Of a stretch of DNA of 64,000 nt, positions 19,973-47,224 are shown in pieces. The DNA is from Lentisphaeria bacterium (lineage in GTDB: Bacteria; Verrucomicrobiota; Lentisphaeria; Victivallales; UBA1829). The translations under genes were made by a program, and so were the position numbers. The notes under the pieces are model-generated. The model ran no database searches. It was not told where the DNA came from and saw only the letters and a program-made list of their open reading frames with translations. Within the stretch, counting starts at the first letter, position 1; each line of letters opens with the position of its first letter. The stretch is taken from assembly GCA_017541665.1 (NCBI GenBank), contig JAFXYP010000064.1, positions 1 to 64,000 on the forward strand, read 5' to 3'.

Positions 19973-22285
19973 TCACTGGCGTCCGCCGCGCGGCATCCTG
20001 CGTCCGGGGCCGGCCCCGAACCCCTGTCCCTGCGCGGGCTGCTGCCGTCCCGTGCGGCGACCCGGCTGAAGCTGGTTTTGAGGCTGAGTCTGCGGCTGCT
20101 GTTGCTGCGCTTGCATCTGAGGCTGTTGCCGCGGCCTCGGGTTCTTCGGGTCGGGGCCGATGGTCACGATGAGGTCGCGGCCGTCGACTTCGATGTTGGA
20201 GATGTCGAGCCCGGAGGGCGAGCCGTCCCACCAGAGGCTGTCCGGCTTCGACATGTCGTTGAAGACGACGCGGTCCGGCGGGTAGAAATAATCGGTGGCG
20301 ATGCCGTTGCAGTCCCTGCCGTGGATCTGGTGCCCGAATGTGCCGGGGCACGGCTTTTCGAGGAGCGGGACACCACCTGCCTGCTCCAGCGAGATCTCAT
20401 AGTGTTTCTCCTTCGTCATTTCCTCGTCCTCCTCCTGGTCGGTCACGGCGTCGTCGACGTGCCAGATGGCGAGCCCGTGCGAGGGAAGCGCGCGGTAGAA
20501 CGACGTGTCGGCGTTTCGGTTTTCGAGCAGAAAATACTCGTCTGGGTTGGCGGGGTTGCGGTAGATGTAGCCGTACTCGCTGGAGGCCGGGATCCGGACT
20601 TTGCCCTTCGACGGGAGCGGGAGCGCCTTCATCCAGCCGAGGCGGCAGCGGAACGGCCCGGCGAGGGCGGTCGGGTTGGTCTGGAGGGCGGTGATGCGGT
20701 CGTACATGCCGATGCCCATGATGCAGTGGTTGCCGAGGCCGTGCGAGACTTTCTGCTCGTTCTTTGGCGTCTTGTCGCTTTTGTCGCCGTAGTCGACGTA
20801 GTCCAGCAGGCCGAACGTCTGGTGCATGATCTCGTGAATCAGGATGCTGACCGTGGGGCTGTCCTGGATGCCGCAGATCAGCACCTGCATGCTGTGGAGC
20901 CCGCCGGGCAGCCGGATCTGGTCCATCGGCGAGAACCAGTGCGCCTGCGGCCAGAGCCCGTCGAACGAGCTGTTGCGCGAATAAAGCACGCAGGCGGAAC
21001 GGATGGTGCCGTCGGCCGACCTCGAGACGGTCGAGAGGTCGAAGTCGCGCGGAAGCTTTGCCATGGCCTCCTTGATGAGCATATCTGCGCCGCGGTAGTT
21101 CAGCGCCTGCTGGTAGTAATCGCGGTTGTGGTCGGCCACAACGTAGTCCGAGACCAGGTATTTGAGGTCGCATCTCCCGTAGGACTGGTTGTCGACGAAA
21201 TCATGGATGGAGCAGGAGTTGCCGTATCCGCGGTAGTTCTTTTCGTTCAGGAAAAACTCCACTTTCTCCTTCGGGATGATGACGTCCGGCGGATCGTCCG
21301 GGAACTTCACGAGGACGGCCAGCCCGGTGATATGGTCCTGGTGGAGCGGCGTCTGCGCGTACTGGACAGCCGATTTCGGGATGTTCGCAACCGGCTTCAG
21401 CGCGAGGCGGAATCCTGCGTCAAATACGGGGATGGAGGCGTCGACGGGCCTGCACGCGGTCACGGTGCAGTCCTCCGGCGAAGCATGCCAGGAGCCGCCT
21501 CGCATCGCGCACAGATCCCCCTTGTAAGCCGCGGAGAAATCGCGCATGAACCAGTCCAGGCAGAGTTCCTGCACGTTTCCGTGCATGTCGTAGAGACCCC
21601 AGGCGTTCGGCCGCTTCAACCCGGCTTCGGACACGGACGGTGTGGAGATAAAGGAATTGCCGCGGTACCAGGCGACCTCGGCGAGCGCATTGGAGATGTT
21701 GTTCCGGGCGCGCAGTTCCCGGCCGCTGTTGAGCTCGGCAGCCGTCCCGGCGCGGCAGGCATATTCCCACTCGGCTTCGTTCGGGAGCGTGAACCGGTAG
21801 CGGAAGGAGCCCGGGAGCGATCTGTTGAGGCGTGCGCAGAACTCTTTCGCCTGTTCCGCCGAGACGTCGTACACCGGCAGGTTCGGCCCGACGCCAAAAG
21901 ACGCGCCGCCCGGCCGTGCCGCCTCGGTAAGCTCCTTCTGCGTGGTCCGCATGACGGCCTGCCACTGCGCCTGCGTCACCTCGAATTTCCCGATGGAGAG
22001 CTCGTTTTCCTTGAACTTGTAGACCACGCGTCCGTCCTTGTCGGCCGTCTCGTTCGCCTGCGGCTTGCGGTTGACCTCCATCGCGATGGATCCGGCGGGC
22101 AGCGTGACGAGTTCGAGCGGGATTTCGCCGGGGAGCATGAACCGGATGGACGGCAGGGCGCCGTCTTTGTGCTCGTAGACGGGCGAGATGGCGGACGCGC
22201 ACGACGCGCATAGAAAGACAATGAGGATGAGGGGCGCGGACCGCAGGACGGACCTGCGGTGCTTCGGGATAACCTGGATCAGCAT
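19973..22285 (-). CDS. Lipoprotein fusing an FGE-like domain to an M6-like metallopeptidase
   Basis: A 770-residue exported protein. The signal sequence ends near C-A-S-C, a probable if atypical lipobox (Cys about 29). Residues about 60-300 are an FGE/SUMF1-like domain: I-G-K-F-E-V-T-Q-A-Q-W, L-P-N-E-A-E-W-E-Y-A-C-R-A-G, G-L-Y-D-M-H-G-N-V-Q-E, R-G-G-S-W and F-D-A-G-F-R-L. Residues about 310-700 resemble M6 peptidases, with H-E-I-M-H at 484-488 and later G-I-A-T-D-Y-F-Y-P. The zinc motif has one extra residue before the Gly compared with HExxHxxG. The tail is rich in Gln, Pro, Gly and Arg. The start at 22285 is chosen because earlier ATGs lie in or next to the promoter. Confidence 0.78.
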   Translation of the reverse strand: MLIQVIPKHRRSVLRSAPLILIVFLCASCASAISPVYEHKDGALPSIRFMLPGEIPLELVTLPAGSIAMEVNRKPQANETADKDGRVVYKFKENELSIGKFEVTQAQWQAVMRTTQKELTEAARPGGASFGVGPNLPVYDVSAEQAKEFCARLNRSLPGSFRYRFTLPNEAEWEYACRAGTAAELNSGRELRARNNISNALAEVAWYRGNSFISTPSVSEAGLKRPNAWGLYDMHGNVQELCLDWFMRDFSAAYKGDLCAMRGGSWHASPEDCTVTACRPVDASIPVFDAGFRLALKPVANIPKSAVQYAQTPLHQDHITGLAVLVKFPDDPPDVIIPKEKVEFFLNEKNYRGYGNSCSIHDFVDNQSYGRCDLKYLVSDYVVADHNRDYYQQALNYRGADMLIKEAMAKLPRDFDLSTVSRSADGTIRSACVLYSRNSSFDGLWPQAHWFSPMDQIRLPGGLHSMQVLICGIQDSPTVSILIHEIMHQTFGLLDYVDYGDKSDKTPKNEQKVSHGLGNHCIMGIGMYDRITALQTNPTALAGPFRCRLGWMKALPLPSKGKVRIPASSEYGYIYRNPANPDEYFLLENRNADTSFYRALPSHGLAIWHVDDAVTDQEEDEEMTKEKHYEISLEQAGGVPLLEKPCPGTFGHQIHGRDCNGIATDYFYPPDRVVFNDMSKPDSLWWDGSPSGLDISNIEVDGRDLIVTIGPDPKNPRPRQQPQMQAQQQQPQTQPQNQLQPGRRTGRQQPAQGQGFGAGPGRRMPRGGRQ

Positions 22286-44942: not shown

Positions 44943-46796
44943 TTACAGCACCGGGTAGCTGCCGAGCAGCTTCAGTTCCTCGGTCAGCGGCTTCAGGCCG
45001 GCGAGCGCGGCGGCCACGCGCGGGGCGTTCGCGGCGCCTTCGATGTCGACGAAGAACCGGTAGTGCCAGCAGCCGGAGCCGGAGGGACGGCTTTCGATCA
45101 TGGTCAGCGTGACGCCGGCGTTCTTGAAGGGTTCCAGGCAGTCGTGGAGTGCGCCGAAGCGTTCGCGCGCCGTGAAGCAGATGCAGCATTTCGCGTGCGG
45201 CATGAGCGTGTTTTCGGCGCGGGAGAGGATCAGGAACCGCGTGCGGTTGTCCGGGGTGTCCTGGATGGAGCGGTCCAGGATGTTCAGGTGGTATTGCGCG
45301 GCGATGCTCTCCCCGCCGATGACGGCGGCGTTCGGGCTGAGCGCGGCGAACTCGGCGGCGCGCGCGTTGGAGCCCACGCCGACGGTCTCGACGTCCGGGA
45401 AGTTGCGTTCGAGGTATTTCCGGCACTGGCCGAGCGACTGGACATGGCTGTAGATGATGCCGATCTTCTCCTTCGGCACGGACGCCATGAGGCAGTGGTG
45501 AATGTTCATGGACGTCTCGGCGTAGATCTTCAGCGTGGTGCCCGCCAGCACGTCGAGCGTGCCGATCACGACGCCCTCCGTGGTGTTCTCCACCGGCACG
45601 CAGCCGTATTCGCACTCGCCGGTTTCGACGGCGGCGAAGACGTTCTGGATGCCGGAGCACGGGCGGTATTCCGCGGTTTCGGCGAAGACTTTCCGCGCGG
45701 CCTCGTGCGTGAACGTCCCGGCAGGCCCCAGGTATGCCACCATGGGCTTGGCGGCGGACATGGCGTGCGGCGTGCCGTGGCGCAGGCGTTCCGCGGCGTT
45801 CAGGATCAGGCGTTCGGTCTCCTCGAATCCGATGCAGGCGTCCGTGACGGAGATGCGCGGGTCGGGGACGACGCCGGGCATCAGGTTCTGCTTGCCGGGC
45901 AGCAGGCAGCTTTCGAGCATCATGCCCGCGATGCCGTCGTTTCCCGCGAGCTTCTGCGACAGGACGTCCTCGAAGACGATGTGCTGTCGGTTCGGGTCGC
46001 GGCGCGAATTGCCGTGGCTGCAGTCGACCACGACCGTGCGCGGGATGCCCGCGTTTTCGAGCTTGCGGAGTGCGGCGTCGATGCACGCGGCGTAGTAGTT
46101 CTCGCCGGAGATGCCGCCGCGCAGGACCAGGTGGCAGTACGGGTTGCCCTCGCTGCGGATGATGCCGCTGCGGCCGTCGTGCATGATCCCGATGTAGCTG
46201 TGCGGCGCGCGGGCGGCGCAGATGGCGTCCACTGCGATCTGCAGGTTGCCGTCGGTGCTGTTCTTGAACCCGACGGGCATTTCGAGCGCGCTGGCGAGCT
46301 GGCGGTGCGTCTGGGACTCCGTCGTGCGGGCGCCGATCCCGGCCCACGAAACGAGTTCGGAGAGGTAGTTTGCGATGGCGGGGTCGAGCAGTTCGGTGGC
46401 GGTGCCGAGCCCGAGCGCCGAGACATCGAGCAGCAGTTTGCGGGCGAGCTCCAGGCCGCGCGCGATATCGCAGCCGCCGTCCAGTTCGGGATCGTACACG
46501 AGCCCCTTCCAGCCGAGCGTGGTGCGCGGTTTCTCGAAATAGCACCGCATCACGATCTTGACCTCGTCCGAGACGCGTTCCGACAGCTTCGCGAGCTTCT
46601 CCGCGTATTCCAGTGCGGCGGGGATGTTGTGGATGGAGCACGGGCCGGCGATCACCATGAGGCGCTTGTCCGTCCGGTCGAAGATCCGGCGCAGCTCGGC
46701 ACGGTTCCGGGTGATGTGTTCCACGATGGACGCGTTCGGCGCAAGTTCGGACGCGAGTTGTTCGGGCGATTTGATGGGCTGTTCTGTCTGGTTCAT
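44943..46796 (-). CDS. DAHP synthase fused to prephenate dehydratase-ACT
   Basis: A 617-residue bifunctional enzyme. Residues 1-345 are an AroG/F/H-type 3-deoxy-7-phosphoheptulonate synthase: G-P-C-S-I-H (51-56), K-P-R-T-T-L-G-W-K-G (89-98) and metal-site D-C-S-H-G-N. Residues about 352-530 are prephenate dehydratase: Y-L-G-P-A-G-T-F-T-H, E-N-T-T-E-G and N-R-T-R-F. An ACT domain (about 540-617) has R-F-G-A-L-H and E-S-R-P-S. It thus joins the first step of the shikimate pathway to the phenylalanine branch, and the ACT domain would let Phe control activity. No chorismate mutase domain is seen. It is preceded by an attenuator. Confidence 0.93.
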   Translation of the reverse strand: MNQTEQPIKSPEQLASELAPNASIVEHITRNRAELRRIFDRTDKRLMVIAGPCSIHNIPAALEYAEKLAKLSERVSDEVKIVMRCYFEKPRTTLGWKGLVYDPELDGGCDIARGLELARKLLLDVSALGLGTATELLDPAIANYLSELVSWAGIGARTTESQTHRQLASALEMPVGFKNSTDGNLQIAVDAICAARAPHSYIGIMHDGRSGIIRSEGNPYCHLVLRGGISGENYYAACIDAALRKLENAGIPRTVVVDCSHGNSRRDPNRQHIVFEDVLSQKLAGNDGIAGMMLESCLLPGKQNLMPGVVPDPRISVTDACIGFEETERLILNAAERLRHGTPHAMSAAKPMVAYLGPAGTFTHEAARKVFAETAEYRPCSGIQNVFAAVETGECEYGCVPVENTTEGVVIGTLDVLAGTTLKIYAETSMNIHHCLMASVPKEKIGIIYSHVQSLGQCRKYLERNFPDVETVGVGSNARAAEFAALSPNAAVIGGESIAAQYHLNILDRSIQDTPDNRTRFLILSRAENTLMPHAKCCICFTARERFGALHDCLEPFKNAGVTLTMIESRPSGSGCWHYRFFVDIEGAANAPRVAAALAGLKPLTEELKLLGSYPVL

Positions 46797-46851
46797 GGTG
46801 ATTCCTTGGGGTTGAGAAGTATTTTAGTTTTTGTGTTGTTGTTTTTCGGGA

Positions 46852-46889
46852 AAAGAAAAACCGCATTCGTGGGATTGGCCCGGATGCGG
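46852..46889 (-). terminator. Second leader terminator before the DAHPS-PDT gene
   Basis: Minus strand: CCGCAT...ATGCGG stem (46884-46889 with 46861-46866), then TTTTTCTTTT. It lies downstream of the main attenuator hairpin and before the start codon, giving tandem terminators. Confidence 0.65.
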
Positions 46890-46900
46890 CGGTGTCTGCC

Positions 46901-46942
46901 AAAAAAAGAAAACGGGTCAGGCCCCTGCTTGGGCCGAACCCG
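46901..46942 (-). terminator. Attenuator terminator (segments 3:4) of the aromatic leader
   Basis: Minus strand: CGGGT-TC-GGCCC pairs with GGGCC-TG-ACCCG over AAGCAG, followed by TTTTCTTTTTTT. Segment 3 (46936-46946, CAAGCGGGTTC) can instead pair with upstream segment 2 (46974-46985, GAAGCCCGTTTG) for 11 base pairs with one bulge, an antiterminator. Confidence 0.82.
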
Positions 46943-46986
46943 CTTGATGTCATACTTTTCTCGTGTACACGTGCAAACGGGCTTCG

Positions 46987-47052
46987 TCAGGCGGTAAATC
47001 GCCAGGAGAAGCCGTAAAATCGAATGCTGTTGTACGCGGAGATCGTTTTCAT
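46987..47052 (-). CDS. Aromatic leader peptide (21 residues) of the DAHPS-PDT attenuator
   Basis: A short reading frame, ATG at 47052..47050 and TGA at 46989..46987. It begins M-K-T-I-S-A-Y and has 6 aromatic residues of 21: Y7, F12, Y13, F15, W17 and F19, so Phe, Tyr and Trp are all sampled. The stop lies one base before segment 2 of the attenuator, so a ribosome reaching the stop would block segment 2 and allow termination. Stalling at the aromatic codons would leave it free. No Shine-Dalgarno site is seen and the predicted transcript start is only 1-3 bases upstream, so it may be translated leaderless. Confidence 0.75.
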   Translation of the reverse strand: MKTISAYNSIRFYGFSWRFTA

Positions 47053-47060
47053 AATGTTTT

Positions 47061-47088
47061 AATTTACACCTGTTTTCCAAAAAGTCAA
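47061..47088 (-). promoter_or_regulatory. Promoter of the aromatic leader/DAHPS-PDT transcript
   Basis: Minus strand: TTGACT, 16-base spacer, TAAATT. Confidence 0.6.
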
Positions 47089-47194: not shown

Positions 47195-47224
47195 GCTTGC
47201 GTCGTTCCCGGATGCGACGCAAGC
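47195..47224 (-). terminator. Hairpin at the end of the membrane-protein operon
   Basis: Perfect 10-base stem GCTTGCGTCG/CGACGCAAGC with a 10-base loop, 30 bases after the 109-residue gene. There is no clean T-run, so the type is uncertain. Confidence 0.45.

Follow-up and report, generated by a model that had tools for sequence, protein, structure and literature searches.

Organization of the locus

The window analysed here is a 64,000-nucleotide stretch of contig JAFXYP010000064.1 from a Lentisphaeria bacterium. An ORF on its minus strand encodes a fusion of a DAHP synthase and a prephenate dehydratase, as the first-pass annotation of this DNA had proposed; Pfam matches to DAHP_synth_1 and PDT agree with that assignment. 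The DAHP synthase part is of the AroFGH type, and the ACT match, at 26.9 bits, lies just below the 27.0 cut-off. The fusion gene is present as a single copy in the genome, and the following features, all on the minus strand, were assigned to the gene and the region ahead of it.

47061-47088, minus strand: sigma-70-type promoter, -35 TTGACT (47088-47083), -10 TAAATT (47066-47061), spacer 16
46987-47052, minus strand: putatively translated leader peptide ORF, MKTISAYNSIRFYGFSWRFTA*, predicted leaderless
47008-47013, minus strand: segment 1 core, GGCTTC, within the leader ORF
46974-46985, minus strand: segment 2, GAAGCCCGTTTG, partner of segment 1 or 3 and possibly of the terminator 2 5' arm too
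46936-46946, minus strand: segment 3, CAAGCGGGTTC, 3' strand of the antiterminator and 5' arm of terminator 1
46910-46945, minus strand: terminator 1 (3:4) stem-loop, from energy folding and compensatory changes
46901-46912, minus strand: T-run of terminator 1, TTTTCTTTTTTT
46860-46890, minus strand: terminator 2 (5:6) stem-loop, T-run TTTTTCTTTT at 46860-46851
46803-46807, minus strand: AAGGA, Shine-Dalgarno-like site of the structural gene
44943-46796, minus strand: DAHP synthase (residues ~1-340) fused to prephenate dehydratase with an ACT-like end (~350-617)

The leader ORF runs from an ATG at 47052 to a TGA stop at 46989-46987 and specifies 21 residues, six of them aromatic (Y7, F12, Y13, F15, W17 and F19). 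A single base, C46986, separates its stop from segment 2. When the region was shuffled, an ATG mini-ORF with at least five aromatics per nine codons appeared in 8 of 1000 sequences. The promoter, a 21-residue leader with Phe, Tyr and Trp codons (6 of 21) and the one-base gap before segment 2 had all been called in the first-pass annotation, and each was found where it had been placed.

Across the 11 closest orthologues, the window's included, TTGACT is invariant and the spacing from the -10 element to the ATG is retained. The AUG of the initial MKT lies ~9 nt past the -10 element in most of the leaders preceding the fusion gene (hereafter aro leaders). If RNA starts at the normal distance of ~7 nt after the -10 element, the leader mRNA is predicted to begin ~2 nt before the AUG, at ~47054, and is probably leaderless, a feature that the earlier reading overlooked. 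No Shine-Dalgarno-like motif was seen ahead of the leader AUG in most aro leaders inspected, whereas the structural gene carries AAGGA. The start regions of the trp leaders of the window's genus and of genus g9 resemble those of the aro leaders. A further hairpin, CTTGCGTCG-CATCCGGGAA-CGACGCAAG, is located at 47196-47223, after the upstream gene and ahead of the attenuator promoter; it has no T-run and includes the same GCATCCGGG as terminator 2.

Conservation of the leader among fusion orthologues

With the window included, 16 full-length orthologues of the fusion were collected from four genera, at 46-96% identity. The related loci belong to the Lentisphaeria/Victivallales and come mostly from rumen samples; no additional fusions turned up in 388 sampled genomes of the phylum. 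A close group of 11 species, again including the window's, has fusions 88-96% identical to it, but as near relatives these species carry barely more weight than one or two independent observations. The remainder comprise G020, listed in the same genus (65%), G086 and G087 from another family (65 and 63%, respectively), and G004 and G005 from another genus of the window's family (46-49%). At 63-65% identity the fusions of G086 and G087 (loci L073 and L074) are nearer to the window's than is genus g4 of its own family, a family of the same order, and horizontal transfer is possible.

The first-pass annotation had suggested looking for a conserved aromatic-rich peptide upstream of orthologues, and a leader containing aromatic residues, followed by a downstream terminator, precedes all 16 fusion genes. 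Every one of these peptides starts with MKT. In the close species they are variants of MKTISVNNSIRFYGFFWRFTA, with MKTTTVNSFRFFGFFWRFYA at L053, itself one of the 11; those of L073, L074, L055 and L056 read MKTMQKYNFRFTGFYCFMQ, MKTNTTYSTRFFRLFWLCP, MKTKRHIFTANSFFGFFLFWRSFRCDRRLCV and MKTTRLLNIAFYFFNFFLFRRSFRFDRGACV, respectively. The leader of G020 (L054) is longer, looser and remodelled, its first hairpin having no T-run; the G020 genome yielded no hit to the anthranilate synthase N-terminal family. Alignment of the 11 close species is good from the promoter to the gene and breaks down immediately ahead of the promoter.

Alternative pairings in the leader RNA

The 1:2, 2:3 and 3:4 pairings of the first-pass annotation are all present at the positions it gave. 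The core of 1:2 joins GGCTTC (47013-47008) with GAAGCC (46985-46980), the 2:3 antiterminator comprises 11 pairs with one bulged G, and terminator 1 has a folding energy of -24.1 kcal/mol. Computation of leader folds, which had been proposed as a check, gave z = -4.4 for the whole leader, with an equal or better fold in 0 of 200 shuffles. Unconstrained energy folding returned 1:2, 3:4 and 5:6 as the main elements in most species. Neither hairpin appeared in the output of a simple terminator scan; both were recovered by energy folding and conservation.

Duplexes were also compared with dinucleotide shuffles. The 1:2 duplex gave p <= 0.017 in every close leader and the 2:3 duplex mostly p 0.007-0.06 in the same group, while no above-chance 1:2 signal was seen in L055, L056 and L074 with the regions chosen.

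Compensating base changes, the other check that had been suggested, were found in 1:2, 2:3, 3:4 and 5:6, in few independent lineages (approximately four to five). They were counted with hand-set registers because automatic alignment places the 1:2 helix one column out of register in L073 and L074. An example is L074 (G087), which differs from the reference L050 in all three segments: UCU stands in place of UUC in segments 1 and 3, and AGA in place of GAA in segment 2; two 1:2 pairs and two 2:3 pairs are thereby exchanged on both sides and both helices are retained. In addition, L073 carries one double change in 1:2, and double changes in 3:4 occur once in L044 and twice in L074.

Stall modelling and proposed mechanism

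The effect of ribosome position was modelled with an idealised ribosome that hides all RNA as far as 12 nt from the first base in the A-site, pairing of segment 3 being computed on RNA ending at that segment. When the A-site was placed at codons 12-19, segment 2 was the partner of 64-88% of segment-3 positions across the 11 close leaders, as opposed to 3-46% with the ribosome at the stop codon and 1-42% without a ribosome. The same trend was obtained for L056, L073 and L074 and was less clean in L055. Codon 19 is both the end of the Phe run of L056 and the point at which its antiterminator disappears. Terminator 1 remains the preferred equilibrium structure in most stalled states, and the decision must therefore be one of kinetic folding, which is the usual assumption for attenuators.

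Taken together, the elements themselves, their conservation, the coordinated base changes and the energetics make it very probable that the element is a ribosome-mediated transcription attenuator. The attenuator logic set out in the first-pass annotation is thus supported by orthologues, coordinated changes and stall modelling alike. In the mechanism we propose, RNA polymerase would initiate ~2 nt ahead of the leader AUG with a ribosome trailing. When charged tRNA-Phe is scarce, with Tyr or Trp possibly contributing, the ribosome would pause at codons 12-19 and mask segment 1; 2:3 could then form, terminator 1 would be blocked and the fusion gene would be transcribed. With an ample supply of aromatic amino acids, the ribosome would reach the stop codon and cover segment 2, so that 3:4 forms and transcription ends. 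If translation were absent, 1:2 would form and leave segment 3 to pair with segment 4. We infer translation of the leader, stalling upon it and termination in vivo on this basis.

Two readings that dispense with a translated leader were weighed against this attenuator. The hairpins might be mere insulating terminators, or an mRNA-stability element, beside a fortuitous short ORF, and hairpins of the terminator 2 type do also end ordinary genes in the genus; such a reading is nevertheless very improbable given the promoter-like sequence upstream of the hairpins in orthologues, the retention of an aromatic-rich peptide across genera and the co-variation of segment 2 with its alternative partners. 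A structured 5' leader with a terminator ahead of a biosynthetic gene would equally suit a riboswitch or T-box, but when the window and seven related loci were searched against Rfam, amino acid leader families included, no family reached the gathering threshold, a lax threshold gave only weak, unconvincing matches, and the coding frame is conserved, all of which leaves that explanation with next to no likelihood.

The amino acid sensed

The first-pass annotation had taken the leader to sample all three aromatics, in keeping with control of the first common step. Phe, Tyr and Trp do occur together in 13 of the 16 leaders, L055 being without Tyr and L056 and L073 without Trp, and to that extent the claim stands; Phe, however, is the sole aromatic common to all 16, and dominates them. 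Further points against the claim are that the genus has a separate Trp leader at trpE, that the second domain of the fusion, PDT, belongs to the Phe branch, and that, in a review's account of Corynebacterium glutamicum aroR-aroF, the AroR peptide (Phe-Tyr-Phe) answers to Phe and not to Tyr, limitation for Phe alone being effective (PMC11802643).

These same observations speak for a sensor of Phe only, in which codons for Tyr and Trp would be incidental or matter only under multiple starvation, and we regard this as rather probable. It is opposed by the retention of the core RFYGFFWRF, Tyr and Trp included, in the close species, and by the modelling, where predicted stalls at Tyr13 and Trp17 work as well as those at Phe. 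A three-amino-acid sensor is accordingly possible but not most likely, and Phe sensing is the safest reading of these sequences.

The second terminator

A second terminator before the gene, also noted in the first-pass annotation, is present and is conserved in orthologues, being retained in the close species, G086, G087 and G020. Two terminators were counted in the window and 12 relatives and one in G004, G005 and G020. The hairpin has a folding energy of -13.6 kcal/mol, and double changes or gained pairs in 5:6 were found in L053, L073 and L074. Its motif was considered as a leader-specific sequence; this was ruled out, as hairpins of the same type also terminate an ordinary gene in several species.

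Because the same type of hairpin ends ordinary genes, terminator 2 probably does terminate transcription and would be expected to block induced transcripts too. This is a real mechanistic problem that the earlier reading overlooked: the conserved tandem terminators pose the direct question of how one stalled ribosome could open two. An induced transcript would have to pass terminator 2, but neither segment 4 nor segment 2 provided a well-supported antiterminator against it. For segment 4, pairing to the terminator 2 5' arm was rejected, since it is found in some species only and is gone in the complete RNA.

The pairing of segment 2 would allow a single stalled ribosome to open both terminators in series: 2:3 would let polymerase past terminator 1, 3:4 would refold, and segment 2, now freed, would pair with the terminator 2 5' arm (candidate 2:5 pairing GCCCG-UU-UGC with GCA-UC-CGGGC). 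For RNA that ends in that arm and carries a stalled ribosome, 2:5 enclosing 3:4 is predicted in most aro leaders. Against shuffles the 2:5 duplex gave p ~0.01-0.02 in the close species and L053, 0.04-0.13 in L073 and 0.01-0.07 in G020, whose segment 2 can pair with the arm directly, its first hairpin being without a T-run. On the other hand, p was 0.14-0.18 in L074, the trp leaders of the same genus gave no 2:5 signal (p > 0.3), and longer flanks raised the values to ~0.03-0.3 in the close species and brought L054, L073 and L074 to chance. Moreover, segment 2 finds a better partner in one terminator at the end of an ordinary gene than in terminator 2, the terminator 2 hairpin dominates the complete RNA in nearly all species, and the regions were picked after the pairing had been seen. 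We therefore consider serial opening of the two terminators unlikely; if true, the re-use of one segment in series would sharpen the switch provided by a leaderless leader mRNA. An equally simple alternative is that terminator 2 is leaky and merely limits maximum expression.

Unfused genes, other loci and trpE leaders

To look for similar control elsewhere in the order, unfused genes were screened for short ORFs with at least four aromatics per nine codons. No comparable conserved leader was found at any of 25 unfused DAHP synthase genes or 40 unfused dehydratase genes; matches were scattered, single and unconserved between related species. A Phe leader at the nearest unfused PDT genes (genus g10) was rejected, the candidate short ORFs differing between species. 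Possession of an attenuator is thus tied to the enzyme fusion, every fusion found having a leader and no unfused relative a comparable one.

No leader was found at leuA or hisG, a proper match to ilvB is missing in the genus, and TIGR00118 (acetolactate synthase large subunit) had no full match in 13 genomes of genus g1. The only obvious amino-acid-rich leaders returned by a search of the window's own genome with the pattern TTGA...ATGAAAA were those of aro and trp.

The trp leader of that genome, MKIYANKSFNSCWWRWW (L161/L177), lies on the minus strand of G000:C35 at ~20838-20882, before trpE. At all 11 trpE loci of the genus (L151-L161) the leader peptide ends WWRWW or WWRWR, and Trp leader, terminator and second terminator precede the gene; G031 has the trpE leader, and a fusion gene was not found there. 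In the family's other genera, Trp-codon leaders such as MNTRTCIFISNRWQWRW and MRTSEYKNIPVFGWRWR occur at 10 of 12 trpE loci (L211-L219 and L222), with tandem terminators in some genera and an apparently single one in g10. Four genera have trpE leaders with a second terminator behind the first. Approximately 6-7 kb downstream of trpE, and on the same strand, an unfused DAHP synthase gene is located in G016, G017, G018 and G001 (L212, L211, L213 and L218), and it is possibly part of a trp operon under the Trp leader. These sister leaders suggest wide use of attenuation control in the lineage.

Comparison with known systems

Leader-peptide attenuation as such is already known, including before DAHP synthase genes. 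The aroR-aroF attenuator of C. glutamicum was reportedly described by Neshat et al. in 2014. It is the closest characterised case, with an aromatic-codon leader, ribosome stalling and a DAHP synthase target, a likeness that is functional only and set by a review's description (PMC11802643). The system presented here differs in its phylum, its fusion target and its tandem terminators, and has the core RFYGF(F/S)WRF where the review gives Phe-Tyr-Phe (PMC11802643).

With E. coli pheL-pheA (and pheST) it shares a Phe-rich leader, the 1:2/2:3/3:4 logic and a prephenate dehydratase target domain. Unlike pheA, the target begins with DAHP synthase and is without a chorismate mutase domain, and the leader has Tyr and Trp codons, is predicted to be leaderless, is followed by two terminators and has no Rfam match. 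The predicted leaderless start has a parallel in Sinorhizobium meliloti trpL-trpE(G), where the leader RNA starts at the AUG of the leader ORF, as is only predicted here; that system uses Trp codons in a 14-residue peptide and belongs to an alphaproteobacterium (PMC7298713). A table in PMC1173090 lists attenuators predicted for DAHP synthase-tyrA operons of Vibrio, again preceding a DAHP synthase gene, in another lineage and operon and as database predictions only. Attenuation of DAHP synthase genes is thus known outside E. coli, a point that the earlier reading overlooked.

According to a 2010 survey, leader-peptide systems had been known only from Proteobacteria and Actinobacteria, to which Firmicutes were added (PMC2965389). 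No description of such an attenuator in Lentisphaerota or Verrucomicrobiota was found in the open-licence literature searched, and the present locus would extend classical leader-peptide attenuation to the Lentisphaerota. What appears to be new is the phylum, the DAHP synthase-prephenate dehydratase fusion as target, the predicted leaderless transcript and the conserved tandem terminators.
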